64,000 bases of DNA, taken from positions 124,001-188,000 of the forward strand of contig NZ_ATXK01000004.1 of the NCBI RefSeq assembly GCF_000421645.1, given 5' to 3'. The stretch's first letter is position 1. Each line of letters begins with the position of its first letter. This document shows positions 8,100 through 50,939 of this stretch, piece after piece. Under the pieces are notes generated by a model. It searched no databases. It was given only the letters and a program-made list of their open reading frames with translations, and was not told where the DNA came from. The position numbers and the translations under genes are program-made. The stretch is from Aurantimonas coralicida DSM 14790 (GTDB lineage: Bacteria; Pseudomonadota; Alphaproteobacteria; Rhizobiales; Rhizobiaceae).

Positions 8100-9464
8100 A
8101 TGTCCAAGACCAATGGGAGCTGCTGTGCAGGTCCGGGCTATGCATCGCCGCAGGAGGCGATGAAGGCGCCGCGGGAGACGGTCGTCTACACGATCTGCAT
8201 CTACACCGGGACCGGGATCGAGAAGCCCGACTACCTGGCCACCATCGACGTCGATCCGGACAGTGCGACCTATGGCGAGGTGATCCACCGGACCGAAATG
8301 CCGAATGTCGGGGACGAACTCCACCACATGGGCTGGAACGCCTGCTCGTCCTGCAACACCGACGGCAGCATGGAGCGCAAGTACCTGATCATTCCGGGCG
8401 TGCGCACGACGAATTTCTACATCGTCGACACCGCCACCGATCCGCGCCGGCCGACGCTGTTCAAGACGATCGACGGAAGCGAGATCAAGGCGAAGACGAA
8501 CCTCTCGGCGCCGCACACGGTGCATTGCCTCGGCGCCGACATCATCGTGTCGATGCTCGGCGACGCCGAAGGCAACGGGCCCGGCGGCTTCCTGCATCTG
8601 GACAAGGATTTCAACATCATCGGGCGCTGGGAGGAGGATCTCGGCGCGATGCGGTACAATTACGACTTCTGGTACCAGCCGCGCCACAACATGATGATCT
8701 CGACGGAATGGGCGTCGCCCAACACCTTCATGCCGGGATTCGATCTGGAGGACGTGGCGCGCGGCAAATACGGCCAGCACGTGCATTTCTGGGATTTCGC
8801 GAATCGTAGGGTCGAGCAGAGCATCGATCTGGGCGCGGAGGGCATGATCCCGCTGGAGGCCCGGTTCCACCACAACCCCGACAGCACGCATGGCTTCGTA
8901 GGGGCGGCCCTGGCCTCGAATATCTTCCACTACCACAAGGACAACGGGACGATCGAGATCGAGAAAATCATCGACGTGCCCACCGTGGATGTCGACGGCT
9001 TCCCGGTTCCCATGCCCAGCCTGATCACCGACATCCTGGTGTCGATGGACGACCGCTTCCTCTATTTTTCGAACTGGCTGCATGGCGATCTCCGGCAGTA
9101 CGACGTGTCCGACCCGGCGAACCCGAAGCTGACCGGGCAGGTCTGGATCGGCGGGATGCTGGGCAAGGCGCCGGAGGTGAACGGCCGTACGGTCGACGGC
9201 GCGCCGCAGATGATCCAGCTGTCGCTGGACGGCAAGCGGCTCTACGTGACGACGTCGCTCTTCTCGACCTGGGACAACCAGTTCTACCCGTCGATGAAGG
9301 AGAAGGGCGGGATCATGCTGATCGTGGATTGCGACACCGAAAAGGGCGGCATGACGATCCGCGACGATTTCATCATCGATTTCAACGACGAACCGCATGG
9401 ACCGGCCCGCGCCCACGAAACCCGCTATCCCGGCGGCGACTGCTCGTCGGATATCTGGGTCTGA
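8100..9464 (+). CDS. mtoX: Selenium-binding protein / methanethiol oxidase (SBP56 family)
   Basis: A 454-residue SBP56 beta-propeller enzyme. Family members (bacterial MtoX, human SELENBP1) oxidise methanethiol to formaldehyde, H2S and H2O2. Visible hallmarks include GPGYASPQEAMKAPRE at 12-27, GWNACSSCNTDG around 79-90 with the conserved Cys pair, YDFWYQPRHNMMISTEWASP around 191-210, FLYFSNWLHGDLRQYDVSDP, PQMIQLSLDGKRLYVTTSL, and the end RYPGGDCSSDIWV. Several of these are nearly identical to the animal protein. No signal peptide is seen, so it is probably cytoplasmic, unlike the periplasmic Hyphomicrobium MtoX. It is followed 56 bp downstream by a 2Fe-2S ferredoxin. Full family length and strong RBS support the start. 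Confidence 0.93.
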   Translation: MSKTNGSCCAGPGYASPQEAMKAPRETVVYTICIYTGTGIEKPDYLATIDVDPDSATYGEVIHRTEMPNVGDELHHMGWNACSSCNTDGSMERKYLIIPGVRTTNFYIVDTATDPRRPTLFKTIDGSEIKAKTNLSAPHTVHCLGADIIVSMLGDAEGNGPGGFLHLDKDFNIIGRWEEDLGAMRYNYDFWYQPRHNMMISTEWASPNTFMPGFDLEDVARGKYGQHVHFWDFANRRVEQSIDLGAEGMIPLEARFHHNPDSTHGFVGAALASNIFHYHKDNGTIEIEKIIDVPTVDVDGFPVPMPSLITDILVSMDDRFLYFSNWLHGDLRQYDVSDPANPKLTGQVWIGGMLGKAPEVNGRTVDGAPQMIQLSLDGKRLYVTTSLFSTWDNQFYPSMKEKGGIMLIVDCDTEKGGMTIRDDFIIDFNDEPHGPARAHETRYPGGDCSSDIWV

Positions 9465-10390: not shown

Positions 10391-11422
10391 CTATTTGCGA
10401 CCGCGGCAGGACCAGTTCCAGTCGCGCTTGTGCCCGACATCGACGTGGATCGCCTTGGTGTGACAATAGGTGCCGACGCCACCGCGGCCCGGCAGCGAGC
10501 GCACATAGGCGGCAACGGCCATGTTGTCGGCGCCGGGGATGATGATGTCGGCGGCCTTGCAGCCCATGTGCTGGGAGCGGCGCGCACCGTTGACCCGCTT
10601 GTTGTGGGTCGGGCTGCGATAGCCGGAGGTGACGATCACCTTGGTGCCGTAGCGCCGCTCGACACTGCGCAGGATGCGCACGAGGTTCGACGGGAAGCAG
10701 GAGGTCTCGACGCTCTCCCGCTGAACCATCAGGCCGTTCGGCGCGAGCCGGGCCATGCCGGTCGACAGGGAGGCAACCCGGTAGGAGGTCTCGACGTCCT
10801 CGATCATGTCCTCGTCGGCCGAGGCGCGCTGGCCGATCTCGAACAGCGAGGAGGGGTCCACGCCGGGCAGTGCGTCGGTGCCGGCCGCCGCGCCCTCTCG
10901 CTGCAGGACGACGCGCCGCGACTTGCCCTTGTCGACATTGGCGATGGGTGTGCGGGCCTCCGAGCGGGCGAAGAGCGAGGAAAACAGCGAACGGTCGGAG
11001 GAACGGCCTGCCGCGCCACTGGTGGACGCCTCGGTCGCATAGGCGACCATGGCCTTATTCTCGCTGCCGGTCGGAATCAGCGGGGTGGCGGCCGGCATGT
11101 CGGCGATGGCGGGCGGCGGCGTCTGTGCTTCGGCCGTCTCGGTCGCCGGCGCATTGGTCTCGGCCGCTGCGCTCGCAGCCTCGGTGCCCTGCGCTTCGCC
11201 GCTCGCTGACGTCCCGGCGTCGGCTTCGGATGCAGCCGCGACATCGACGGCAGCCGCGTCTTCGGTTTCGGGCGCCGTAGCGGTCCCGGCAAATCCGAAG
11301 GCCGAGGTATCGTCGATGGCGGAGACGCATCCTGACAGGATCGGCGCGGTCGACAGAAGCGCCAGCATCAGGAGATGCGGCGTCATCGCAAGGCGGCGGT
11401 GGCCCGGGCGGTCAGTTTTCAA
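10391..11422 (-). CDS. YcbK/M15A-like peptidase domain lipoprotein
   Basis: A secreted lipoprotein of about 343 residues whose last 110 residues are a peptidase M15A/YcbK-type fold. SGYRSPTHNKRVNGARRSQH and KAADIIIPG carry the His/Asp zinc ligands, and THVDVG-like IHVDVGHKRDWNW the last His. Such domains cleave or bind peptidoglycan. The N terminus ends its hydrophobic stretch with ILSGC, a lipobox. A long Ala/Thr/Glu-rich linker (about residues 45-110) follows and probably spans the periplasm. I start at TTG 11422 because GAGGGG lies six bases upstream; ATG 11386 is the alternative with no such site. tRNA-Glu lies downstream on the same strand. Confidence 0.85.
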   Translation of the reverse strand: MKTDRPGHRRLAMTPHLLMLALLSTAPILSGCVSAIDDTSAFGFAGTATAPETEDAAAVDVAAASEADAGTSASGEAQGTEAASAAAETNAPATETAEAQTPPPAIADMPAATPLIPTGSENKAMVAYATEASTSGAAGRSSDRSLFSSLFARSEARTPIANVDKGKSRRVVLQREGAAAGTDALPGVDPSSLFEIGQRASADEDMIEDVETSYRVASLSTGMARLAPNGLMVQRESVETSCFPSNLVRILRSVERRYGTKVIVTSGYRSPTHNKRVNGARRSQHMGCKAADIIIPGADNMAVAAYVRSLPGRGGVGTYCHTKAIHVDVGHKRDWNWSCRGRK

Positions 11423-11650
11423 TCGTTTCCCCTCTCGGCGGCGTGTTCGCGAACCCGCCACGTCAGTCCTGCAACGACCCGGCCATCCTGCCGCGTCTCC
11501 ATGGTCCCCACCATGTGTCGCCACTGACAGTCTCGATGATCTTACCAAGCGTCAGGTCGTGCACGGCGAAAGCATTGTCTCTCAATAACGCTCTGCCGTC
11601 TATGGTGGGAATGCGGCGGCACGATGGTCGCCGCATGTCCCGGTGGAAGC

Positions 11651-12091
11651 TTACCAGCTTCCGGTGTTCTGCATCGAGGCCCAGGGCTCCGCGGGCTCCT
11701 TGGCCTCGCCCTTCTGCAGCAACTCGATCGAGATGTTGTCGGGCGACTTGATGAAGGCCATGTAACCGTCGCGGGGCGGGCGGTTGATGGTGACGCCCTT
11801 GTCCATCAGGTCCTGGCAGGTGGCGTAGATGTCGTCGACCTCATAGGCGAGGTGGCCGAAATTGCGCCCGCCGGAATATTCCTCGGGGTCCCAGTTGTGG
11901 GTGAGCTCCAGAAGCGGCGCACGGGTCTCCTTGGCGCCCGGCATGTCTTCCTGCCCGGCGAGGAAGATCAGGGTGAAGCGACCCTTTTCGCTCTCGACAC
12001 GGCGGGTTTCCACCATTCCCAGCTTGTTGCAGTAGAAGTCGAGCGACGCGTCCACGTCGCTGACGCGAACCATCGTGTGCAGATAGCGCAT
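11651..12091 (-). CDS. gloA: Lactoylglutathione lyase (glyoxalase I)
   Basis: A 146-residue vicinal-oxygen-chelate enzyme that isomerises the methylglyoxal-glutathione hemithioacetal to S-lactoylglutathione. It begins MRYLHTMVRVSDVDASLDFY, with the metal-binding His at residue 5. The expected later features are LLELTHNWDPEEYSGGRNFG (Glu ligand), HLAYEVDDIY and a C-terminal SPDNISIELLQ (Glu ligand). Length equals the small monomeric-domain GloA family. The frame is open upstream of 12091 but that extension is not protein-like. A Gly/Ala-rich tail of about 20 residues ends the protein. Confidence 0.95.
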   Translation of the reverse strand: MRYLHTMVRVSDVDASLDFYCNKLGMVETRRVESEKGRFTLIFLAGQEDMPGAKETRAPLLELTHNWDPEEYSGGRNFGHLAYEVDDIYATCQDLMDKGVTINRPPRDGYMAFIKSPDNISIELLQKGEAKEPAEPWASMQNTGSW

Positions 12092-12448
12092 TCGGTCTTG
12101 CCTCTCTTGTGGTGATGGCGCCGATGGTAGCGTGTTTGACCGGTGAGCCAACCCTTGCGGCGCAGAAAAAGCGACGACGGGAGACGGGTTCGGCCCCGGA
12201 TCGGGCAGGGCGCTGCCGGCAGCCTGTGGCGCTGATATGTCTGTCGGAGCGGCATTGCAGACGGCGTCAGTTGGTGGCTGCAGCCGGCGCCGTTGTTGCT
12301 GTCGTCGCGGCAATAGAACGCCGCCATGTCTGGGCGACAACCGGCATATCCTTGGAAAAGCCCGCCGGTGGCCTTGCCCCGATCGGGCTCATTGATGCTA
12401 AGTTCGGCCATTGCGATTCGGATGGTGGAAGTACAGGCGGAACCCCGA
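12092..12448. other. Divergent intergenic region, gloA / cold-shock gene
   Basis: These 357 bp separate two divergently transcribed genes and should hold both promoters. Frames on either strand are low-complexity and I do not support a gene here. No clear hairpin was seen. Confidence 0.5.
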
Positions 12449-13027
12449 ATGCCGGACAGAATATCTGAAAACGCCGAGGACCGGGCCGGTCGGTCCGACA
12501 GCGCGGATGTCGGCCTGTCCGTCGTCTCGGGCCATATCAAATGGTTCGACGTCTCGAAGGGCTTCGGCTTCATCGTGCCCGACGACGGCGGCGCGGATAT
12601 TCTCCTTCATGTCACCTGCCTGCGGCGCGACGGCCATGCGACGGCGCTCGAGGGCGCCCGCGTCGTCTGCGAGGTGCAGCAGGGCGAGCGCGGCCTGCAG
12701 GCGTTCCGGGTCCTGTCGATGGACCAGTCCACCGCCGTCCATCCCTCGCAGCTTCCGGCCCCGCGCACCCATTCGGTCGTCACCGCCAGCAGCGACCTCG
12801 TCTCGGCCGTGGTAAAATGGTTCAACCGCACCAAGGGCTACGGATTCCTGACGACCGGCGAGGGGACCGAGGACATCTTCATTCACATGGAAACCCTGCG
12901 CCGGTTCGGCATGACCGAGCTGCGGCCCGGCCAGGACGTGCTGGTGCGTTTCGGGCAGGGCGACAAGGGACGCATGGCGGCGGAGATCCATCCCGGGACG
13001 GGTCCCGTCCAGCCGCCGTCCCACTGA
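12449..13027 (+). CDS. Double cold-shock-domain protein
   Basis: A protein of about 192 residues with two cold-shock domains in tandem. The first has [16 protein letters not shown] and DILLHV; the second has [18 protein letters not shown] and DIFIHM, so both RNP1 and RNP2 motifs are intact in each. Two-domain CSPs of this sort are typical of rhizobia and bind single-stranded nucleic acid. Start is chosen at ATG 12449 ([11 protein letters not shown]) behind GGCGGA; ATG 12422 is in frame. The DUF192 gene begins 15 bp after the stop, so the two are probably co-transcribed. Confidence 0.9.
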
Positions 13028-13042
13028 GTTGAGGCAGATCCG

Positions 13043-13510
13043 ATGGCAATGAGACGCGCGATCCTGGCGGCCGGCTTTGCGGCGGCGGCCGTCGTCGTCG
13101 GGGCGGCCTATTACGCGGTGGCGGGCAACGGCCTGTCGACGGCGACGCTGGAGACGGCGACCGGGAGCCATGCCATCAAGGTCGAACTGGCGCAGACACC
13201 GGAGACGCGTGCCACCGGACTGATGAACCGCGAATCGATGCCGGCGGACCAGGGCATGCTGTTCGAGTTCGACGAGACCCGCCCGGTTGCCATGTGGATG
13301 AAGAACACGCTGATTCCCCTCGACATGCTGTTCATCGATTCGGACGGGGTGGTGAAGCGGGTGAAGACCAACGCCCAGCCGCTGTCGCTGGAGACGATCC
13401 CGTCCGGGGCGCCGGTGAAATACGTTCTGGAGCTGAATGGCGGCGCCGCGGCCCGCTTCGGCGTGGCCGCCGGGGACCGACTTCGTCACCCGATCATTCC
13501 GCAGCCTTGA
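13043..13510 (+). CDS. DUF192-family exported protein
   Basis: A 155-residue protein with an N-terminal membrane anchor or signal sequence (about residues 5-27) and a single DUF192 domain. Diagnostic segments are KVELAQTPETRATGLMNRES, GMLFEFDETRPVAMWMKNT and IPLDMLFID, then APVKYVLELNGG. The function of DUF192 is not established. It follows the cold-shock gene with 15 bp spacing and is followed by tRNA-Pro. Confidence 0.92.
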   Translation: MAMRRAILAAGFAAAAVVVGAAYYAVAGNGLSTATLETATGSHAIKVELAQTPETRATGLMNRESMPADQGMLFEFDETRPVAMWMKNTLIPLDMLFIDSDGVVKRVKTNAQPLSLETIPSGAPVKYVLELNGGAAARFGVAAGDRLRHPIIPQP

Positions 13511-13563
13511 CTTCCCGACCATTGCCCGCCAAACCCCGCATCGACAGGCACGTCACCAGTGTC

Positions 13564-13640
<77 letters not shown>

Positions 13641-13706
13641 ATGGTCGACGGACACCGGTTTTTGACACGGGCGTGGCGAAGCCGCGCCGCCGCCGACGAG
13701 GCCCAG

Positions 13707-14012
13707 ATGGTTGCGAGAATCTATCGTCCGACCCGTACCGCCATGCAGTCGGGCAAGGCGAAGACGCGCGATTGGATGCTGGTCTACGAACCCGAGCAGC
13801 CCAAGCGCGTCGAGCCCCTGATGGGCTATACCTCGTCCGGCGACATGCTCTCCCAGCTCAGACTCTCCTTCGAGACCCGCGAGCAGGCCGTCGAATACGC
13901 CGAGCGCAACGACATTCCGTACCGGGTCGAGGAGCCGAAGGAAACGCGGCGCCCGAAGATCGCCTATGCGGACAATTTCCGCTATGACCGGCGCCAGCCC
14001 TGGACACACTGA
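13707..14012 (+). CDS. ETC complex I subunit, NDUFS4-like
   Basis: A 101-residue homologue of the mitochondrial complex I accessory subunit NDUFS4 (18 kDa). It begins MVARIYRPTRTAMQSGKAKT and continues with the family core PLMGYTSSGDMLSQLRLSF, an ETREQAVEYAERNDIPYRV stretch, and a final RRQPWTH. In alphaproteobacteria these subunits attach to the peripheral arm of NADH dehydrogenase. The start at 13707 aligns with the family; the frame is open to the tRNA-Pro end but not protein-like there. It sits between tRNA-Pro and tRNA-Arg. Confidence 0.9.
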   Translation: MVARIYRPTRTAMQSGKAKTRDWMLVYEPEQPKRVEPLMGYTSSGDMLSQLRLSFETREQAVEYAERNDIPYRVEEPKETRRPKIAYADNFRYDRRQPWTH

Positions 14013-14048
14013 CGGTCGAACCGTCCGTCCCGGCGCCAGGTCGCCTAC

Positions 14049-14124
14049 GGCCCCGTAGCTCAGAGGATAGAGCACCGGCCTTCTAAGCCGATGGTCGCAG
14101 GTTCGAATCCTGCCGGGGTCGCCA
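14049..14124 (+). tRNA. tRNA-Arg (TCT)
   Basis: A 76-nt cloverleaf. Acceptor GGCCCCG pairs with CGGGGTC, the anticodon loop CTTCTAA holds TCT, the T arm is GCAGG-TTCGAAT-CCTGC, and CCA is encoded. Its 3' end lies only 20 bp from the stop codon of the sulfotransferase fusion gene, a typical position for an integration site. Confidence 0.95.
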
Positions 14125-14143
14125 GAACCACCGACAATACGCC

Positions 14144-16723
14144 TTACTGTTTCAATGCTTCGTCGCCAAAAGCGTGGATGAAGCCGTTGACGATGGCTGA
14201 AACCGCGCGCTCGGACACGTGCCGCGTCGTGCCGTCCTCTTCTCCGAAGAGATTTGGGTGGTATGCGCCGACCCATCGCACCATCTCGAAAGCCGGCCAG
14301 TAGTTCACGCCTGCATGCGCCCGCTTCAAAACGACATCGATTGCAGCCCGCAGCACAGACTTGGACACGCAGTCGGCAATAATCGCTGAATCGTACTCGA
14401 AAGTCGAGTAGAGCGGCACCGGCGATACGGTGAAAACGATGTTGATGTTGGGATTGCACCGACGCAAGCCTGCGATCACCGCTTCGATGTTGTCGGCGTT
14501 CTCTTCCACGGTCGTGGTTCTGAAATCGTTCGTTTTGAGCAGGTGCAGCGTGTTCTTGCCAGCCTGGGTGAGGTGGAAAAGGCCGGTGCGCTTGTCGAAG
14601 AAACCCGGTGCCACGCCGAGTGTGTAGATGATGGTGTTCGCACTCGTCAGTGTGGCGCGGAGCGTGTCCGGGGATGCGCCGAAATAGACTTTCAGCGTCT
14701 CTATGGTTTCCGGGCTGTAGCGATCGAGCGGATCATTGTTCACCCATTCGATCAAGGCGCGGTTCGCGAACGTGCTGTTGATCAGTTCGCCGAGGCCGAG
14801 TGCAGTCGTCTCGACCCCTCGATCCTTCAATGCAATGGCAATGTTGCCGGCAAAGCATGAACCCAAGGTCACGACTCTCGTGTCGCGGCCGATCGGGCGG
14901 GTGCCCGCAGCCTTCGTATTGTCCGCAAACTGCCGTGCGACCTCATCGAGGTCCTGGAATGCGGCATTCTGTACGGGCCACCGCGCGATTTTGCGCTTCG
15001 GCGCCGATGAATCCAGCCGTGTGAGTCCGTCGAGCATGTAGGCGGCACCGTTCAGGCGGTGGCTCTCGGCTTCCGTCACCGGCGCAAGCCTGACTGACTC
15101 GGTCAGATAGGCGCGGGCATCGTCCAGGCGCATCTCGGCAAGGATCAGCCCTTCACCGAGTCGCTCAAGCAGATGCGCCCGTGTCCGCTCGTCGAGCTGA
15201 ACCGTCGCCGACGCCTTTTCAAGCGCCAACGCCGTCTCGAAGATCCCGACTGCTTCTGGCGAGCGTCCCTGGTAGCACAATGCCTCACCGAGCCAGACGT
15301 GAGCGGTCACGGACTCCGGATCGTCCTCGACGGCGGAACGGAACAGCCGTTCCGCAGCGACGATCTTGGAAACCTTGCCAGCGGCCCCGTGCAGCAGCGA
15401 GACACCTTTGGCGATAACATCGTCGGATACGGTCGCGGACGTCTGATCCTGACCGCTGGCGAGTGCCGTTGCTTCTGCTTCGGAAACAGCGGAAATCTTG
15501 ACGCAGCTTACGGCGACCGATGCGGTCAGATCATGGGTGCTCTCGACGCCATGATCGGAGAGGCGTCCCGTGCGCAGCGCGTTGATATCCAGTTCCAGCA
15601 AGGGGCCGGCCTTGGCATTGTCCGCCGCCCGCAATCGCCAACGCTTGACAGCACGCATGTCCTCCATCGACACATGATAGCTTGTCTCTTCGCAATCCCA
15701 GCCGGTCATAGCCACGGTGAGGCTGTCGAGCGTTTCCCTGTCGATCCAGCCGACGAGATGAATCTCGACGTCGTAGCATGGCGATGCGGCGATCGCGGTG
15801 AAGAGCCGCGTCTGTGTGGCAGGGCCTAGCCAGCGTGCATAGCTGCCGTTCTGGATCTGGCGGACATGCCAGTTGTCCCCCTCGACGGTCTGACTGGCGT
15901 AGAGTTCGACAGCCGTGGGCAACGCCATCTCCGGAGCCTGCCCGACAGCTTCCCGGTGTTTGCGCCAGGCCTGCCTCGCCATCGTACGCAGCAAGTTGCT
16001 GCGTTTTGCGCAGAAGCGGCGATGGACTTCCTGATACAGAGCGACGTCGAACCGGTTGAGCTCCTCCAGTTGCCTCCTGACCGCCGGACTGAGGGCGTCC
16101 GTCGCCACGCGGCTCGCTGTCGTGTTGAAGCGGTTGTCACTTGGCCACGGAAGCCAGTCCAGCATCGTGCAGAGCATCTGCATCGAATCGTCGTAGGCGG
16201 CATGCACGCCGATCAGGTCGAAATCGTCGAGATGTGCCATCGCCAGACTGAAGTCCTGTTCGGTCACAGGATCGCTATGGCGCCAGTCATGCGCGAAGAA
16301 GCAGGTTTGATGATTGTCCGCGACCTGCCGGACGGCGGGGTCATCGATCCGGACGAACTCCTCGATAGGCCATCGGCGTGCAAGGTCGATCATCTGCTGC
16401 GCGCGCGTGTCCTCCACGTCTGCGTGGGCGCGCAGAAACCAGTAGTTGGACAATACCCGGTCGACCGGTTCGCGAACAATCGAGAACAGGAACCGGCTCG
16501 GAGGAAGCAGGAGCGTGTGATTGTATGCGTAGTGGCCGATCACCAGACGTTTGCCGGCAAAAGTCTCGGGCGTGAAATTGTCGAACTGTTCGGGGGACGC
16601 ATTGACCGCCTCCGACAGGTCAAACCGGCTCAGAAGCTCCTGCGATATGGAATGGCCACCCACTTTGCCGATATGCATGAAACAAACGGGGGAGTTGGGA
16701 GTGTTTCCCGGTTCTGTCGTCAT
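14144..16723 (-). CDS. Sulfotransferase-TPR-GSCFA fusion protein
   Basis: An 859-residue multidomain protein. Residues about 12-250 form a Sulfotransfer_2-type domain: the 5'-phosphosulfate loop is FMHIGKVGGHS at 15-25 and the 3'-phosphate motif SIVREPVDRVLSNYWF at 81-96. A middle region of beta character (about 290-420) and TPR-like helices (about 440-560, AERLFRSAVEDDPESVTAHV, then a second copy) follow. From about 614 to the end is a GSCFA domain (VVTLGSCFAGNIA, TIIYTLGV, FTVSPVPL), an SGNH-like family linked to surface-glycan modification. The likely reaction is PAPS-dependent sulfation of a glycan, with GSCFA acting as esterase or acyltransferase; this is inference. cysC lies just upstream on the same strand. 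Base composition looks poorer in GC than the neighbours. The N terminus may be frameshifted (see the 16724-16902 entry). Confidence 0.8.
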   Translation of the reverse strand: MTTEPGNTPNSPVCFMHIGKVGGHSISQELLSRFDLSEAVNASPEQFDNFTPETFAGKRLVIGHYAYNHTLLLPPSRFLFSIVREPVDRVLSNYWFLRAHADVEDTRAQQMIDLARRWPIEEFVRIDDPAVRQVADNHQTCFFAHDWRHSDPVTEQDFSLAMAHLDDFDLIGVHAAYDDSMQMLCTMLDWLPWPSDNRFNTTASRVATDALSPAVRRQLEELNRFDVALYQEVHRRFCAKRSNLLRTMARQAWRKHREAVGQAPEMALPTAVELYASQTVEGDNWHVRQIQNGSYARWLGPATQTRLFTAIAASPCYDVEIHLVGWIDRETLDSLTVAMTGWDCEETSYHVSMEDMRAVKRWRLRAADNAKAGPLLELDINALRTGRLSDHGVESTHDLTASVAVSCVKISAVSEAEATALASGQDQTSATVSDDVIAKGVSLLHGAAGKVSKIVAAERLFRSAVEDDPESVTAHVWLGEALCYQGRSPEAVGIFETALALEKASATVQLDERTRAHLLERLGEGLILAEMRLDDARAYLTESVRLAPVTEAESHRLNGAAYMLDGLTRLDSSAPKRKIARWPVQNAAFQDLDEVARQFADNTKAAGTRPIGRDTRVVTLGSCFAGNIAIALKDRGVETTALGLGELINSTFANRALIEWVNNDPLDRYSPETIETLKVYFGASPDTLRATLTSANTIIYTLGVAPGFFDKRTGLFHLTQAGKNTLHLLKTNDFRTTTVEENADNIEAVIAGLRRCNPNINIVFTVSPVPLYSTFEYDSAIIADCVSKSVLRAAIDVVLKRAHAGVNYWPAFEMVRWVGAYHPNLFGEEDGTTRHVSERAVSAIVNGFIHAFGDEALKQ

Positions 16724-16902
16724 GCGATTCTTCGATCCGCTCTGAGGCCACCAGTGGCAGGCCAGGGTGACGTATTCACCGGGCGCGAATAGATGTGCCC
16801 GTATTTCGACGTGTCCACGAACCGCGACCTTGCCCGACACCTCGCGGTGACTTCAACCTTCAGATCGTGGATTGTCCGGTCCTTGAATGACCTCCGCATC
16901 AC
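16724..16902 (-). pseudogene. Probable frameshifted 5' end of the sulfotransferase fusion gene
   Basis: A frame opens at GTG 16902/ATG 16899, only 8 to 11 bases after the cysC stop and behind GAGGCGAG, giving MRRSFKDRTIHDLKVEVTAR. In the next frame, starting about 16850, the main gene's reading frame extends upstream of its ATG and reads as a smooth hydrophobic/charged beta pattern (VAVRGHVEIRAHLFAPGEYV, then TLACHWWPQSG) that runs straight into the sulfotransferase. Joined by a one-base shift near 16840-16855 the two give a continuous N terminus. Alternatives are a genuine start at GTG 16840 or ATG 16723 with no frameshift. Confidence 0.45.
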
Positions 16903-16910
16903 TCGCCTCG

Positions 16911-17534
16911 TTAGCGGGGGGCGAGATATCCGTGGGTTTCAAGATAGCGCATGATCTGGTCGGCCAGAACGTCCGGATCTCGTGTTCCTGCCTCCAGCCG
17001 GATCTCCGCCTGCTCGGGTGCCTCATAGGGGCTGTCGATGCCGGTGAAATCCTTGATCAGCCCGGCGCGGGCGCGCTTGTAGAGGCCTTTCGGGTCCCGC
17101 TGCTCGGCGATCTCCAGCGGGGTGTCGACGAAGACCTCGATGAATTCGCCGTCCTCGAACAGGCTGCGCGCCATCCTGCGGTCTGACCGATAGGGCGAGA
17201 TGAAGGAGGCGAGGACGATCAGGCCGGCATCGACGAACAGGCGTGCCGCTTCCGCCACGCGGCGAATGTTCTCGACACGATCGGCTTCGGAGAAGCCCAG
17301 GTCGCGGTTGAGGCCGTGGCGCAGATTGTCGCCGTCGAGAAGATAGGTGTGCCGGCCGCGCGCAAAGAGGCTCTTCTCCACGAGATTGGCGATCGTTGAC
17401 TTGCCGGCGCCGGAGAGCCCCGTGAACCAGATCACCGCCGGCTTTTGCCCCATGGCGGCCGCACGGCGCTGCTTGTCGAGATCGAAGGTCTGCCATCGCA
17501 CATTGGGCGCATGGGAACGTTCGGTTTCGGCCAT
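16911..17534 (-). CDS. cysC: Adenylylsulfate (APS) kinase
   Basis: A 207-residue stand-alone APS kinase that phosphorylates APS to PAPS in the cytoplasm. It has the Walker [10 protein letters not shown], then [20 protein letters not shown] (the DGDN substrate loop), [24 protein letters not shown] and [13 protein letters not shown], all family signatures. It is not fused to CysN, and no sulfurylase gene is in the window. The sulfotransferase fusion follows on the same strand, so this enzyme most likely supplies that protein with its PAPS donor. Start is ATG 17534. Confidence 0.95.
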
Positions 17535-17898
17535 GTCGGCACCATCAATGTCGGCAGGCCGTGACCCGCTGGAAGGGCGATGCAGAACGCGCGGTCTGCA
17601 AGCCGGTTTTTTCCGTTCGCCGGCAGTGCCCGTTTCGAACGTCGTCGTGGCATCACCGCGTGCCGGATGGTTGCCGTCCGGTCAAGGAGATGCGGGACGC
17701 CAATCGCCCGGACAGCGGCGTTCGCCCGCTTCTCGGGACCGTTTCCGCGCCGGTTGCGGCGGGAAGGGCACAGCCGCAAAGCGGATCCGGGCGTATGATT
17801 GTTTTCGCACCCTTCACACTCCAGCCACCAACAATCTTCATCGGCTAGTGAGGCGGGTGTGGGCATCATCGACAGGCAGACACGCTTGGAGGCAGACG
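17535..17898. other. Divergent intergenic region, cysC / small protein gene
   Basis: These 364 bp lie between the divergent cysC and 67-residue small-protein genes. No gene, tRNA or terminator is supported. A copy of the tRNA-Arg 3' end, which would mark the far border of an integrated element, was searched for by eye and not found. Confidence 0.5.
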
Positions 17899-18102
17899 AT
17901 GTTACAGGCACGCTCGACGATCCTGGTGGATCATTGCAAGGCGGCCATGGCGGGCGACTTTCGCCATCCGGCCAGTGTGATGAACATGCTGGGGATCGAC
18001 TACGAATACGCGCAGGACGATCCGCGCGTGGACGTCCGCGTCTTCCATGGATGCACGAACGTCCCGCGGGGACTGCCGTCCTACGTCCGCGCCATCGGCT
18101 GA
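17899..18102 (+). CDS. Small protein of 67 residues, unknown
   Basis: Unrecognised. The open frame MLQARSTILVDHCKAAMAGD... has an ideal ribosome binding site (GGAGG, eight bases before ATG 17899) and is followed by a GC-rich hairpin. The protein is soluble-looking, has two cysteines, a Met-rich centre (VMNMLGIDYEYAQ) and an acidic segment DDPRVDV, and ends in PSYVRAIG. It lies between the cysC cassette and metC, reading toward metC. The RBS and terminator make it a real gene in my view, but function cannot be stated. Confidence 0.6.
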   Translation: MLQARSTILVDHCKAAMAGDFRHPASVMNMLGIDYEYAQDDPRVDVRVFHGCTNVPRGLPSYVRAIG

Positions 18103-18145
18103 GCCGCGCCGCGGCCAGCCCGCAGGCCGGGTATTCAGCCAGGCC

Positions 18146-18175
18146 GGCCCCGCATCGGCATAGCGACGCGGGGCC
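18146..18175. terminator. Intergenic hairpin between convergent genes
   Basis: GGCCCCGC and its exact complement GCGGGGCC form an 8-bp stem with a 14-nt loop. It lies after the small-protein stop and eight bases beyond the metC stop, so it could end both transcripts. There is no U tract. Confidence 0.5.
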
Positions 18176-18182
18176 TTGACGA

Positions 18183-19367
18183 TCAGCGGCCGTGAACGGC
18201 GGCGAAGCCCGCTTCCATGTCCGCCTGCAGGTCGGCCACATCCTCGAGCCCGATCTGCAACCGGATCAGGCTGCCCGCGGCCGGTCCCTTCGCGATAGTC
18301 CGGTCGCCCAGCGACGCCGGCACGGCGAGACTCTCGTGCCCGCCCCATGAATAGCCGAGGCCGAAGACGCGCAGCGCGTCGAGAAAGCGCTCGGCCGCAT
18401 CCGTATCCCCGTCGAGAACGAAGCCGAACAGGCCGCTCGCGCCGCTGAACTGACGCTGCCACAGGGCATGGTTGGGGAAGGAGGGCAGGGCCGGGTGCAG
18501 CACGTCGAGGACGTCGTCGCGACCTTCCAGCCATTGCGCCAGCGCCAAAGCGGACGACTGGTGCCGCTCCAGCCGAACGCCCATGGTCTTCAGGCCGCGC
18601 AGGACGAGATAGGTGTCGTCGGGCGCGCCGTTGACGCCGAGCTGCATCTGCGTGTCGCGGAGCTGGGCGAGGGTCGCCGCGTTCGCCGATACGCTGCCCA
18701 TCATCAGGTCGGAATGGCCGCCCGGATATTTGGTCAGCGCATGGATCGACAGATCGACGCCATGCTCGAGCGGCCGGAAGAACAGCGGCGTCGCCCAGGT
18801 ATTGTCCAGCATCGTCACGGCGCCGCCGGCATGGGCCGCCTCGCAGACCGCGGCGACGTCCATGATCTCGAAAGTGTTGGAGCCGGGTGCCTCGAGGAAG
18901 ACGACCTTCGTTTCGGGACGCATCAGCCCGGCGATGTCCGCGCCGATATGCGGATCGTAATATTCGACGTCGACGCCCATCCGCCGCAGCGTGCCGTCGC
19001 AGAAGCGGCGGGTGGGGAAATAGACCGAATCGACCACCAGGCAGTGATCGCCGGCGGACAGGAACGCCAGCAACGGCACGGTGACGGCGGCCAGCCCTGA
19101 CGGCACAAGGATCGTGCCCGCGGCGCCCTCAAGTTCGCTCAGCGCATCTTCGAGAACCTTGGTCGTGGGGGTGCCGGACAAGGCATAGCTGAACGGTGCC
19201 TTGGCTCGGTTCTTCAACTCCTTGGCGGTGGGAAACAGCACGGTGGAGCCGTGCACGACGGCCGGATTGACGAAACCATGCTGCGTGGATGGGTCGAACG
19301 GGCCGTGCGCGAGCTGCGTATTCACCCCCAGACGCGTGTTGCCGGGCTGCGCGGATCGAGTGCTCAA
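18183..19367 (-). CDS. metC: Cystathionine beta-lyase
   Basis: A 394-residue Cys/Met-metabolism PLP enzyme of the MetC type, splitting cystathionine to homocysteine, pyruvate and ammonia in methionine synthesis. The PLP lysine is in SIHALTKYPGGHSDLMMG; other motifs are SYALSGTPTTKVLEDALSEL, VPSGLAAVTVPLLAFL, DNTWATPLFFRPL and LGYSWGGHESL. The start is a TTG at 19367 with GGAAG about eight bases upstream. It is divergent from aapJ, an arrangement also known from Rhizobium and Sinorhizobium, where metC is adjacent to the aap operon. Confidence 0.93.
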   Translation of the reverse strand: MSTRSAQPGNTRLGVNTQLAHGPFDPSTQHGFVNPAVVHGSTVLFPTAKELKNRAKAPFSYALSGTPTTKVLEDALSELEGAAGTILVPSGLAAVTVPLLAFLSAGDHCLVVDSVYFPTRRFCDGTLRRMGVDVEYYDPHIGADIAGLMRPETKVVFLEAPGSNTFEIMDVAAVCEAAHAGGAVTMLDNTWATPLFFRPLEHGVDLSIHALTKYPGGHSDLMMGSVSANAATLAQLRDTQMQLGVNGAPDDTYLVLRGLKTMGVRLERHQSSALALAQWLEGRDDVLDVLHPALPSFPNHALWQRQFSGASGLFGFVLDGDTDAAERFLDALRVFGLGYSWGGHESLAVPASLGDRTIAKGPAAGSLIRLQIGLEDVADLQADMEAGFAAVHGR

Positions 19368-19583
19368 TTGTTGGGCTTCCTGATTGTTTGCGAGACGTGG
19401 ATTGCCGTAATCGTCAAAATCGGCGGGAGAAAAGCGTCACATGCTTGACCTGCACAAATTTATGACATGAGATCAAGCCGCCTCGTGAAGATGCGTTTGC
19501 GATGCGGCCTTGGCTGCATGGGTGCGTCTCTCAACGACAAAGAAAAGAATTGAACTGAAAACCATGCCTGGAAAGGTTTCCTG

Positions 19584-20603
19584 ATGAAATTGAGACTTTT
19601 GACTGCCGTGCTGGGTCTGACCGTCGCCGGAGTGGCCGTCAGCGGTGCGTCCGCCCAGACGCTGCAGACGGTCAAGGATCGCGGCGTCCTGCGCTGCGGC
19701 GTCAACACCGGTCTGCCGGGCTTCGCCTCGCAGAACGATCAGGGTGCCTGGCAGGGTCTCGACATCGACTACTGCAAGGCAATCGCCGCCGCCGTCTTCG
19801 GCGACCCGTCCAAGGTCGAATATTCGCCGCTGTCGGCCGTTCAGCGCTTCCCGGCGCTGCAGAACAACGAAGTCGACGTTCTGGCCCGCAACACCACCTG
19901 GACGATGGACCGCGACACCACGCTGGGCCTGACCTTCGCCGGCGTGAACTACTATGACGGCCAGGGCTTCATGGTGAAGAAGGACCTCGGCGTGAACTCC
20001 GCGCTCGAACTGTCCGGCGCGACGGTCTGCGTGCAGAGCGGCACGACCACCGAGCTGAACCTGGCGGATTATTTCCGCACCAACAACATGGAATACAACC
20101 CGGTCGTCATCGAGTCCCAGTCGGACGTGAACTCGGCCTATGACAGCGGTCGTTGCGACGTGCTGACCACCGATGCGTCGGGCTTGGCGGCCTCGCGCCT
20201 CGAAATGGGCAATGCCGACGAGCACACCATCCTGCCGGAGATCATCTCCAAGGAGCCGCTCGGACCTGCCGTGCGCCAGGGCGACACCGAATGGTTCAAC
20301 GTCGTCAAGTGGACGCACAACGCGCTGCTGAACGCCGAAGAGCTGGGCGTCACCCAGGAGAACGTCGAAGACATGAAGACCTCGGAGAATCCCGAGATCC
20401 GGCGTCTGCTCGGCGAAGACAAGAACTTCGGCGAGTCCATCGGCCTGTCGCAGGACTGGGCCGTGAACATCATCAACGCCGTCGGCAATTACGGCGAGAT
20501 CTTCGAGCGCAACATCGGTGTCGATACGCCGCTGGAAATCGCCCGTGGCCAGAACGCCCTGTGGACCAAGGGCGGCCTGCAGTACGGCATGCCGATCCGC
20601 TGA
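19584..20603 (+). CDS. aapJ: General L-amino acid ABC transporter, periplasmic binding protein
   Basis: A 339-residue solute-binding protein of SBP family 3, the first gene of an aapJQMP operon. A signal peptide (KLRLLTAVLGLTVAGVAVSG) ends near ASA-QT at residue 23. The mature start TLQTVKDRGVLRCGVNTGLPGF and LDIDYCKAIAAAVFGDPSKV are typical of AapJ, as is the end GLQYGMPIR. In Rhizobium, AapJ binds a wide range of L-amino acids. Start ATG 19584 has GGAAAGG upstream. The gap of 111 bp to aapQ is the longest in the operon. Confidence 0.96.
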   Translation: MKLRLLTAVLGLTVAGVAVSGASAQTLQTVKDRGVLRCGVNTGLPGFASQNDQGAWQGLDIDYCKAIAAAVFGDPSKVEYSPLSAVQRFPALQNNEVDVLARNTTWTMDRDTTLGLTFAGVNYYDGQGFMVKKDLGVNSALELSGATVCVQSGTTTELNLADYFRTNNMEYNPVVIESQSDVNSAYDSGRCDVLTTDASGLAASRLEMGNADEHTILPEIISKEPLGPAVRQGDTEWFNVVKWTHNALLNAEELGVTQENVEDMKTSENPEIRRLLGEDKNFGESIGLSQDWAVNIINAVGNYGEIFERNIGVDTPLEIARGQNALWTKGGLQYGMPIR

Positions 20604-20714
20604 GCTGATCAAGCCGGGCCGGGCGCGTCTTTCGCGTCCGGCTCGCCCGGCGTGGCCCGTTTGCCCCTTGCGGCCGCCGGGGATCGTCAACTTCCGCAAC
20701 GCCCGGGAGCGTAG

Positions 20715-21905
20715 ATGACCGTCGAAACCCATTCCGTGCCGCGTCAGGGCGGCGGGGCCAGTTTCCTGAACAATCCGACCGTCCGCAGCATCGTCATCCA
20801 GGTCGCCCTGGTGGTCGGTATCGCGCTCTTCACGTGGTGGATCGTCGACAACACGGCGCGGAATCTCGCAGCCGCCAACATCGCGTCCGGCTTCGGCTTC
20901 CTCGCCGAGCGGTCTGGCTTCGACATCGCCATCACGCCCTTCACCTATTCGAGCAATGCCACCTATGGGGACGCGATCCTCATCGGTATCGCGAACACGC
21001 TGGTCGTGGCGATCAGCGGCATCATCCTGGCGACCATCGTCGGCTTTCTCGTCGGCATCGGGCGCCTGTCGCGCAATTTCCTCGTCCGCTCGATCTCGAC
21101 CGTCTATGTCGAGACCTTCCGCAACATCCCGCCGCTGCTGGTCATCCTGTTCTGGTACTTCGGCGTGCTGTCGGTTCTGAGCGGTCCGCGCGGCATCGAC
21201 GAGAGTCCGGTCGGCGTCTATCTGACCAATCGCGGCCTGCAGATTCCGGCCATCCTGTTCGAACCGGTCGCCTGGGCCACCCTTGCGGCCTTCGCCGTCG
21301 GGACCGCGGCCACGATCCTCTATGCGCGGCGCAGCAAGAAGCATCAGATGGCCACGGGCGAGCGCCGGCCGGTGCTGTGGCCGGCCATCGGCATGATCGT
21401 CGGCCTGCCGCTGCTGGTCTTCGTGGCCACCGGTATCCCGGCGACGCTGGAGTTTCCGACCGCGACGCGCTTCAACCTCGCCGGCGGCATCCAGATCCGG
21501 CCGGAATTCATCGCCCTGTGGCTGGCCTTGTCGATCTACACCGCGGCCTTCGTGGCGGAGATCGTGCGTGCCGGCATCCTGTCCGTCTCCAAGGGACAGA
21601 CCGAGGCCGCCTCGGCGCTCGGGCTGACGCGCGGCAAGCTGCTGCGGCTGGTCGTCGTGCCCCAGGCATTCCGGGTGATCATTCCGCCGCTGACCAGCCA
21701 GTATCTCAACCTGACCAAGAACTCGTCCCTCGGACTGGCGATCGGCTATCCCGAACTCGTCGCCGTCGGCTCGACCGTCCTCAACCAGTCCGGCCAGTCC
21801 ATCGAGGTCGTGGTGATCTGGATGACGGTGTATCTCGGCCTCTCCATCACGGTGTCGCTCATCATGAACTGGTTCAACGCCAAAATGGCGCTCGTCGAGC
21901 GATGA
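20715..21905 (+). CDS. aapQ: General L-amino acid ABC transporter permease
   Basis: A 396-residue inner-membrane permease. It has an N-terminal helix and a HisM-type BPD_transp_1 domain in which the first segment (IGIANTLVVAISGIILATIV) and the EAA-loop helix KGQTEAASALGLTRGKLLRL are separated by a long insert, as in AapQ/BztB. The C-terminal region (PPLTSQYLNLTKNSSLGLAI) is also diagnostic. It pairs with AapM to form the membrane channel. aapM follows 17 bp later. Confidence 0.95.
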   Translation: MTVETHSVPRQGGGASFLNNPTVRSIVIQVALVVGIALFTWWIVDNTARNLAAANIASGFGFLAERSGFDIAITPFTYSSNATYGDAILIGIANTLVVAISGIILATIVGFLVGIGRLSRNFLVRSISTVYVETFRNIPPLLVILFWYFGVLSVLSGPRGIDESPVGVYLTNRGLQIPAILFEPVAWATLAAFAVGTAATILYARRSKKHQMATGERRPVLWPAIGMIVGLPLLVFVATGIPATLEFPTATRFNLAGGIQIRPEFIALWLALSIYTAAFVAEIVRAGILSVSKGQTEAASALGLTRGKLLRLVVVPQAFRVIIPPLTSQYLNLTKNSSLGLAIGYPELVAVGSTVLNQSGQSIEVVVIWMTVYLGLSITVSLIMNWFNAKMALVER

Positions 21906-21922
21906 TCGGGGGCGAATAGATC

Positions 21923-23422
21923 ATGGAAGAACAAGTCGCCCGTTTCGTTTCCACCGAGGAAAAGCTGCCGCTGCCGCCCCCGCCGAGCGAGGTCGGGTTC
22001 ATCGGCAATGTCCGCCGCAACCTCTTCGCGACGCCGCTCGACAGCGTCCTCAGCGTGATCGCCGGCGCGTTCATCGTCTGGGCCGCGATGAACATCTTCA
22101 ACTGGGCCTGGCTCGACGCCGTCTTCACCGGCAGCGATCGCACTGCGTGCCTGGTCGAGGGCGGTGGCCATGGCGGCGCCTGCTGGGCCTTCGTCAGCGC
22201 CAAGTTCGGCCAGTTCATGTACGGCGTCTATCCGTTCGGCGAACGCTGGCGCATCGACGTCACGGTGGTGCTCCTGGCACTGCTGGTGGCAGGGCTGGCG
22301 ATCCCGCGGGTGCCCCACAAGCGCCTGAACGCGATCCTGCTGTTCGCGGTGTTCCCGTTCGTGGCGCTGGTGCTCCTGACCGGCGGCGAGTTCCGCTTCG
22401 CCGGCGGCACGGTGGCGCTGGTCTTCCTGGTCGCGGCCGTTGCCACGCTGAGCAGTGTCCTCGCCAAGCCCGACGTCGACATCTCGCAGATGCCGGTCAA
22501 GATCGCCGCCGGCCTCGCAGGTCTGGCTCTTCTTTTGCTGCTGGTTTCGGCGGCGTTGGATCCGGATCTGTTCCGCTTCCTCGGCTACCGGTTCTCGATC
22601 CTCTCGGTCGCCGCGTTCTTCGCGTCGCTGGCGGCGATCGCGCTGGCGGTCTGGGCCGGCTTCCGTGCCGGGTCCGAGGGGGCGGGCGTCTTCGGGCTCC
22701 TGGTTCCGACCCTTGCGGCGCTGGCCTTCATGGTGCTGATGACCGGCGACTTCGGGCTCCGGCCGGTCCCCACCAATCTGTGGGGCGGCCTGATGGTGAC
22801 CCTGGTCGTGGCGGTCAGCGGCATTGCCGCGTCACTGCCGCTGGGTATCCTGCTGGCGCTCGGCCGGCGGTCGTCGATGCCGGCGGTGCGGCTGTTCTGC
22901 ATCGTGTTCATCGAGTTCTGGCGCGGTGTGCCGCTGATCACCGTCTTGTTCATGGCGAACTTCATGCTGCCGCTGTTCCTGCCGGAGGGCGTGACCTTCA
23001 ACCAGCTCCTGCGGGCGCTGGTCGGCGTGGCGCTGTTCTCGGCGGCCTACATGGCCGAGGTCATCCGCGGTGGCCTGCAGGCCATCCCGAAGGGACAGTA
23101 TGAGGGCGCCGATGCCATGGCGCTCACCTATTGGCAGAAGATGCGGATGATCATCCTGCCGCAGGCGCTGACGCTGGTGATCCCGGGGATCGTCAACACC
23201 TTCATCGGCCTCTTCAAGGACACCAGCCTCGTCTACATCATCGGCCTGGCCGACCTTCTGGGCACGGTCCGGCGCGGCTTCAACGATCCCGACTGGATCA
23301 CCCCCACCACACCGGCGACCGGCCTGGTCTTCGCCGCGTTCATCTACTGGCTGTTCTGCTTCTCCATGTCGCGCTACTCGATCTACACCGAGCGGCGACT
23401 GGATACCGGACACAAAAGCTGA
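21923..23422 (+). CDS. aapM: General L-amino acid ABC transporter permease
   Basis: A 499-residue permease, longer than AapQ because of about six additional hydrophobic segments in the N-terminal two thirds. The C-terminal BPD_transp_1 core carries the motif [19 protein letters not shown], preceded by [20 protein letters not shown]. It forms the heterodimeric channel with AapQ. The stop is 11 bases before the aapP start, and AAGGA serves as ribosome binding site for the next gene. Confidence 0.95.
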
Positions 23423-50572: not shown

Positions 50573-50939
50573 GCTCCACGAAGCGCCGCGTACGCACGCA
50601 TCTTAACCATTGTTTAAAACTTCATGCGCGGTGAGCACGTGACATCGTTGCATTTGGCGAGGTTCTGCGCGAACCTGCCTTTACACCGAAGGTCAAGGGG
50701 TTAACCCGGCATCTTCGCAGTTACCCCATGGAATGCTCAGGTCCGCCGCATCTCCTGGGTCCCGTGGGGCGGTCGGTCGGTCTAGTGCAATGGCGGTTTC
50801 CTCGTACCGTCGCACGAAGACCGGCCGGCCACTTTCGTGTCCGACCAGGGACCGTCTCTCTTCATCTGAAAAATCTTGCGTCGTGCGCTGCGCGCGACCG
50901 GGTCGCGCGGGTCGATGATGTTCGCAGACTGTCTCGGAC
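50573..50939. other. Intergenic region with an orphan CtrA box
   Basis: About 370 bp between the pleD hairpin and the convergent cyclase gene. No coding frame is convincing. It contains the CtrA box (50603-50617) and a small hairpin (AGGTTC-TGCGC-GAACCT at 50660-50676), so a non-coding RNA is possible. The rpmG gene that often follows pleD is absent. Confidence 0.45.
50603..50617 (+). promoter_or_regulatory. Perfect CtrA-binding box
   Basis: TTAACCATTGTTTAA matches the TTAA-N7-TTAA consensus including the CCAT core, in a genome where AT-rich words are rare. No gene start lies within 300 bp on the correct side, so it could drive an unannotated transcript. Confidence 0.6.

Follow-up and report, generated by a model that had tools for sequence, protein, structure and literature searches.

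What is an adenylylsulfate (APS) kinase gene doing beside a large multidomain gene next to a tRNA gene in Aurantimonas coralicida DSM 14790? We analyzed a 64,000-nucleotide stretch of contig NZ_ATXK01000004.1 (positions 124,001 to 188,000; hereafter the window), in which cysC, encoding a stand-alone APS kinase, lies upstream of a gene for an 859-residue protein that joins a sulfotransferase domain, a middle region, tetratricopeptide repeat (TPR)-like helices and a GSCFA domain. Comparison with the closest sampled congener (G006) resolved to the base a new case of exchange between sister species, in which cysC is the same whereas the sulfotransferase beside it differs in both family and strand. 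We consider the pair to be probably a glycan-sulfation module with an exchangeable sulfotransferase part. The features of the locus, numbered along the window, are as follows.

13641 to 14012, plus strand: NDUFS4-like gene, left flank; present in 8 of the 8 genus genomes searched
14049 to 14124, plus strand: tRNA-Arg (TCT), from ARAGORN and Rfam; left boundary of the exchanged block
14126 to 16941, strandless: exchanged block of 2,816 bp, from blastn against the sister genome G006
14144 to 16723, minus strand: sulfotransferase–middle region–TPR–GSCFA fusion, 859 aa (Pfam, AlphaFold2 models)
14180 to 14878, minus strand: GSCFA domain of the fusion, residues 616–848 (Pfam, model, Foldseek)
15017 to 15430, minus strand: TPR-like helices, about residues 432–569 (AlphaFold2 model; weak TPR matches)
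15479 to 15940, minus strand: middle region, about residues 262–415 (weak similarity; no Pfam match over the cut-off)
16034 to 16693, minus strand: sulfotransferase domain, residues 11–230 (Pfam, conservation, fold match to 4ndz)
16911 to 17534, minus strand: cysC, stand-alone adenylylsulfate kinase, 207 aa (Pfam/NCBIfam); its final ~10 codons lie within the exchanged block
18183 to 19367, minus strand: metC, cystathionine beta-lyase, right flank; adjoins the same site in G001, G004 and G006

The flanks of the source genome (G000) and G006 are 96–97% identical, and blastn recovered only two blocks here, 11301–14125 and 16942–22813, leaving 2,816 bases between them without a counterpart. In their place, G006 carries 1,306 bases with a plus-strand gene for a 374-residue Sulfotransfer_1 protein (48.4 bits, cut-off 22), for which a plasmid search returned no match. 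The left edge of the slot falls one base beyond tRNA-Arg and the right edge inside the final codons of cysC. Comparison of the two inserts, both as DNA and translated, gave chance-level matches only. Identity in 200-base bins was 0.97–1.00 at the left edge and 0.965–0.98 at the right edge, inside cysC, which indicates that cysC is backbone common to both genomes; the gene as a whole is 95% identical, roughly matching the similarity of the flanks, and identity falls to 0.88 just upstream of it (17542–17741). Within the 11.5 kb compared, the sulfotransferase block is the sole part replaced.

The same site also varies in the rest of the genus. In G001 and G004, queF and next metC come after tRNA-Arg, and neither cysC nor a sulfotransferase is at the site; G005 has different genes after the tRNA, and the contigs of G002, G003 and G007 stop within 275 bases of it. 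Each of the eight genomes has one queF match, located elsewhere in the source genome and G006. In G003, a fragment after tRNA-Arg (L081:2560–2833) resembles by eye the start of queF, a queF match also being present elsewhere, and may be taken as a further sign of turnover at the site.

The base composition of the block sets the fusion apart. GC content is 60.6% in the fusion, 64.3% in cysC and 65.1 and 65.3% in the flanks; GC at third codon positions (GC3) is 0.742 in the fusion, 0.80 in cysC and 0.83–0.90 in four neighbor genes. The two lowest-GC bins among the 64 one-kb bins of the window start at 14001 and 16001. The dip that the preliminary description had assigned to the whole cassette is thus the fusion's and hardly that of cysC. 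The four parts of the fusion have even GC3 (0.738–0.746), so that nothing points to a fresh or artefactual join. The stop codon of the fusion lies 19 bp from tRNA-Arg (TCT), one less than first described, and the frame would encode 898 aa rather than 859 if an upstream GTG served as the start.

The preliminary description had also proposed a mobile module, and by these measures the fusion does look foreign and differ between sister species. If the pair were cargo of an element integrated at tRNA-Arg, this would suit the block's left edge, only one base away from the 3′ end of the tRNA, its low GC and the variable contents after the same tRNA, close to which three of the eight genus contigs end. 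However, neither a second copy of the tRNA-Arg end after the tRNA nor a repeat pair flanking the block was seen. Of the 11 other frames of 100 aa or longer that lie between the tRNA and metC, the 10 run through Pfam (all but 14736–15041) had no match, to an integrase or otherwise. Neither the integrase nor the direct repeat of the tRNA end by which a tRNA-integrated island is recognized was thus seen in what was compared. Moreover, cysC and the cysC–metC gap are common to the source genome and G006. The mobile-element explanation is already weakened by these results and appears distinctly improbable; what survives of the earlier claim is variability without a tRNA-integrating element.

We then considered what the conserved cysC supplies. 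Its product matches PF01583 at 237.5 bits, in agreement with the earlier assignment, with the P-loop GLSGAGKS at residue 39, and is the sole APS kinase match in the source genome. It does not have the CysNC/NodQ architecture, as its open frame spans 256 aa with no CysN GTPase fused ahead; 21 of 24 APS kinase matches lay in frames of at least 618 aa, as expected of CysNC, the exceptions being those of the window, G006 and G049. PF01507 gave two adjoining matches in the source genome, read as CysD and CysH. This CysH has the CC and CxxC cysteines, which we take to be the sign of an APS reductase, and passed the NCBIfam model APS_reductase (239.1 bits, cut-off 235.3), failing PAPS_reductase (141.2 vs 254.2) and cysH (151.2 vs 165.1). 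Since CysH is of the APS-reductase type, cysteine synthesis in this genome probably needs no 3′-phosphoadenylylsulfate (PAPS); and since cysC is the only APS kinase found, PAPS is probably made for sulfation.

The distribution across the genus is suggestive only. APS kinase was found in five of the eight genomes (G000, G006, G001, G003 and G007), and a search with PF00685, PF13469 and PF03567 found a sulfotransferase above the Pfam cut-off in four of these and below it in G003; G002, G004 and G005 had no APS kinase and no sulfotransferase of these families. Co-occurrence is therefore 4/5 vs 0/3 (p = 0.07), or 5/5 counting G003 (p = 0.018). APS kinase was present in at least 324 of 397 genomes of the order sample. 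In a tree of cysC, the window gene grouped with members of the order at a support of 0.41, too weak to draw any conclusion on origin. Across nine stretches, eight with an APS kinase and one with the G001 sulfotransferase, our own profiles, of limited sensitivity, detected no sulfotransferase beside stand-alone-type APS kinases. Stand-alone cysC was rejected as a marker of neighboring sulfotransferases, most short frames being contig-end or split CysNC.

What, then, would use this PAPS? PF03567 (Sulfotransfer_2) matches residues 11–230 of the fusion at 27.1 bits, above the curated cut-off of 22. The PAPS-site residues H17, K20, G23, S25, R84, P86 and S92 do not vary in an alignment of 13 sequences that includes the window protein, R89 also being listed among the conserved residues with R84, P86 and S92; of the PAPS-binding motifs, K20 represents the 5′ loop, and R84 and S92 the 3′ loop. 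These residues, the domains and the lone APS kinase support the sulfation module proposed from the first description. In the model of the N-terminal domain, which excludes residues 262–455, the predicted local distance difference test score (pLDDT), taken block by block along the chain, is mostly 80–94, with dips to 54. Its closest solved structure in Foldseek is the heparan sulfate 2-O-sulfotransferase 4ndz, bound to a heptasaccharide and 3′-phosphoadenosine 5′-phosphate (E = 1.6 × 10⁻⁶), a partial match with a template-modeling (TM) score of 0.39 by query length.

Relatives of this half provide a second line of evidence on the substrate. Residues 13 to ~400 of the fusion are 21–22% identical to two tandem sulfotransferases of G715 and 23% identical to a plasmid-borne sulfotransferase of Pannonibacter phragmitetus, whose locus holds an ATP-binding cassette (ABC) permease and ATPase, an FkbM methyltransferase and glycosyltransferases. 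A glycan, as first proposed, is the likely substrate because the nearest solved fold is a polysaccharide sulfotransferase and because relatives of the parts sit in polysaccharide-export or glycosyltransferase loci. Tandem sulfotransferases (L140:5140–7709 and L148:7986–10546) differ in their catalytic domains and are near-identical over the C-terminal 170 residues, as if these ends had been homogenized by gene conversion.

Alternatively, the pair could sulfate a small molecule, lipid or peptide, with the GSCFA domain trimming or loading an ester on the product. The neighboring genes run through Pfam are not glycan genes, TPR repeats frequently bind peptides, and the Sulfotransfer_1 family that fills the G006 slot has small-molecule enzymes among its members. 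Against this stand the polysaccharide sulfotransferase as top fold match, the ABC-export polysaccharide locus of the N-terminal-half relatives and the occurrence of GSCFA with glycosyltransferase, TylF or WcbI domains (see below), and we regard a non-glycan target as unlikely.

The C-terminal half was assigned mainly by modeling. Pfam TPR matches are weak (residues ~455–504; best 26.5 bits, under the model cut-off of 32.7), and the AlphaFold2 model of residues 430–859, built with 44 relatives (mean pLDDT 90.2), shows TPR-like helices followed by an alpha/beta domain, with TPR proteins among its Foldseek matches. PF08885 (GSCFA) covers residues 616–848 at 108.6 bits (cut-off 25), with the family motif at residues 621–625. 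Foldseek matched the GSCFA model to the SGNH-type esterases 7e16, 8ik1 and 4h08 (target TM 0.55–0.56, root-mean-square deviation 5.9–7.3), and to 4dev at lower TM, which lends moderate support to an SGNH-like fold; a GSCFA profile run against the sequences of solved structures gave chance-level matches only and no SGNH hit. G621-S622-C623-F624-A625 is invariant across 45 sequences and H835 almost so. Read against the SGNH blocks, Cys replaces the Ser of GDS and His is retained. Acylation or deacylation by this half, as raised in the preliminary description, is still conjecture, the family having no known activity (PMC9487903). No membrane segment was found in the fusion (top 19-residue hydropathy 1.52), and because PAPS is cytosolic the GSCFA half should also act in the cytosol.

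A catalytically dead GSCFA domain that only binds or places the glycan is a rather doubtful alternative. It would explain why the block-III Asn expected of SGNH enzymes from the accessible part of a 2022 review (PMC9487903) was not recognized in the GSCFA alignments. On the other hand, the invariant GSCFA motif and the nearly invariant H835 are conserved as in an active site.

Is the fusion itself real? The coordinates and length given at the outset are right, and the sulfotransferase and GSCFA domains were recovered above Pfam cut-offs and the TPR-like helices by model; the middle region, which separates the sulfotransferase domain from these helices, had been missed. No other full-length fusion was found in 59 other genomes, 384 others of a class sample or 396 others of an order sample, samples that overlap; in the class and order scans, no more than two candidates were scored in each genome. 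A contig scan with six exact window-protein peptides, a method that detects close relatives only, found no relative; 64 plasmid records matched, none covering 80% of the fusion query, and phages gave no fusion match. Proteins of TPR–GSCFA type (Burkholderia, Bradyrhizobium, Rhodospirillales and others) resemble the C-terminal half at up to 44% identity. Unlike the window protein, none of the 70 loci from a GSCFA-weighted alignment scan had a sulfotransferase in the GSCFA frame by our own profile, and the sulfotransferases of G715 and P. phragmitetus, which resemble the N-terminal half, are in proteins without TPR or GSCFA. There are thus two existing architectures, one of a sulfotransferase with the middle region and one of TPR with GSCFA, and the window protein joins them. 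The preliminary description had held that a fusion split in all close homologs would count against it. Literally, no other fused copy exists among those searched; as no close whole-protein homolog was found either, the result reads as a rare four-part fusion rather than a wrong gene call. Nor do the two genes lie at one locus with normal GC throughout the order, the other outcome it had named as adverse. Separately, GSCFA-type genes occur on 34 putatively viral IMG/VR contigs (L220–L253).

We also looked at the company GSCFA domains keep. GSCFA is fused to glycosyltransferase 2 and TPR (L163), to a TylF methyltransferase (L195) and to WcbI (L138, L324 and L327). In G498 (L316), the gene order is CysQ (274.1 bits, cut-off 228.8), CysD, CysNC, GT61 (minus strand), GSCFA (152.9 bits), Sulfotransfer_2 (92.6 bits), GT2 and epimerase, with 11 bases between GSCFA and the sulfotransferase; G459, of the same genus, also has APS kinase (CysNC), GSCFA and sulfotransferase together. 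An Alloyangia pacifica plasmid carries overlapping genes for a sulfotransferase-like protein (16.5 bits, under the Pfam cut-off of 22), WcbI and GSCFA, with cysND nearby, and a sister plasmid has different content at that site. The two plasmids (L146 and L149) share a replicon type; between repA and cysND they do not carry the same sulfotransferase, WcbI and GSCFA genes, apparently a second case of swapped content next to PAPS genes.

We counted neighbors at 60 GSCFA loci, hand-chosen from the GSCFA-range rows of earlier genome scans rather than taken from all rows, and at 52 controls about half a contig away, eight loci having no control. WcbI was fused to or beside GSCFA at 8/60 loci vs 0/52 controls (Fisher p = 0.005). 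This count is post hoc: shorter flanks had already shown five of these eight loci and, of the four sulfotransferase loci below, three. WcbI is fused at L328 (the same gene as L138), L324 and L327 and a neighbor at L284, L302, L322, L323 and L338; these lie in seven genomes of five genera. All eight matches exceed the Pfam cut-off, one as a partial frame (30.5 vs 29.2). The profile for WcbI derives from two sequences, of which one (G475) is itself among the eight loci. APS kinase was near GSCFA at 2/60 loci vs 0/52 (p = 0.28), and Sulfotransfer_1/3, by our own profile, at 0/60 vs 0/52. WcbI, a capsule enzyme, binds CoA, gave no activity by itself and has been proposed to require a partner (PMC4104973). 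GSCFA is a candidate for that partner, which is a lead only and no result on the window protein: WcbI, too, acts in glycan modification and occurs fused with or next to GSCFA but, unlike the sulfotransferase, was not found at the window locus. An open-access literature search found no paper containing both GSCFA and WcbI, and only seven that contain GSCFA. The pairing would allow the mechanisms of both proteins to be probed directly and at low cost.

Several observations weigh against an exchangeable glycan-sulfation module, in addition to the partial match to 4ndz, whose model leaves out residues 262–455. The fusion is a single case; no glycan gene adjoins the pair, so that context does not identify the acceptor; and the G006 sulfotransferase lies on the opposite strand, so that the two species do not share co-transcription with cysC. 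CysH additionally scores above the cut-off of a general NCBIfam model named phosphoadenylyl-sulfate reductase (247.5 vs 154), and the genus search for sulfotransferases covered PF00685, PF13469 and PF03567, not Stf0. Sulfotransfer_2 was near GSCFA at 4/60 loci vs 0/52, which is not significant (p = 0.079); three of these four loci were known before the count, three exceed the Pfam cut-off, two come from one genus and one lies ~4 kb from GSCFA. Among the 70 loci nearest the window's own GSCFA subfamily, Sulfotransfer_2 occurred in one, within flanks of up to 6 kb.

With these points weighed, we still favor the glycan-sulfation module, which could work as follows. Housekeeping CysD and CysN would produce APS, which CysC would phosphorylate to PAPS, seemingly not needed for cysteine synthesis. 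The fusion, cytosolic to judge from its sequence, would bind PAPS through its N-terminal domain and sulfate a sugar residue in a surface polysaccharide or in the precursor of one, the acceptor being held or positioned by the middle region and TPR helices. The GSCFA domain would modify the same sugar chain in a second way, most likely by acyl transfer or acyl removal. The block from tRNA-Arg to the end of cysC may have been swapped among related species by recombination between their conserved, homologous flanks, and different species would thus sulfate different targets from one PAPS supply. A bolder and quite tentative extension is that GSCFA is a cytosolic SGNH-type acyl-transfer module serving varied sugar-modifying partners, namely sulfotransferases (fused in the window, neighboring in G498, G459 and Alloyangia) and the CoA-binding WcbI, with GSCFA as the partner that WcbI lacks, and that the tRNA-Arg slot is a serotype-like switch swapping whole sulfate-plus-acyl writers while one PAPS supply is kept. 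In any event, the four-part enzyme ties to sulfation a family that the accessible part of the 2022 review lists without any activity or structure (PMC9487903).

Elsewhere in the window, positions 50722–50835 match the EcpR1 (Atu_C6) small RNA (98 bits), and positions 8100–9464 encode an SBP56 selenium-binding protein (Pfam, 728.9 bits) that falls far under the cut-off of the NCBIfam methanethiol oxidase model (155.6 vs 650).

Modules that combine PAPS synthesis with a sulfotransferase are already known. In Sinorhizobium, the NodPQ–NodH system links PAPS-making genes to a dedicated sulfotransferase; in the window, by contrast, cysC stands alone with no CysD/CysN of its own, and the sulfotransferase is part of a four-part fusion. 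In Vibrio sp. KMM 8419, the locus for a sulfated capsule places second copies of cysC, cysN and cysD together with sulfotransferases in one glycan locus, and the strains compared there vary in sulfotransferase content, so far as the available portion of that report goes (PMC11641403). Unlike the window, it is an 80-gene capsule locus, and the same portion gives no sign of a GSCFA fusion (PMC11641403). The principle of the Aurantimonas pair is therefore ordinary; its form is unusual, in that two sister species keep a lone APS kinase gene and differ in the sulfotransferase at a sharply delimited slot, which in one of them is a four-part fusion that our searches recovered nowhere else.

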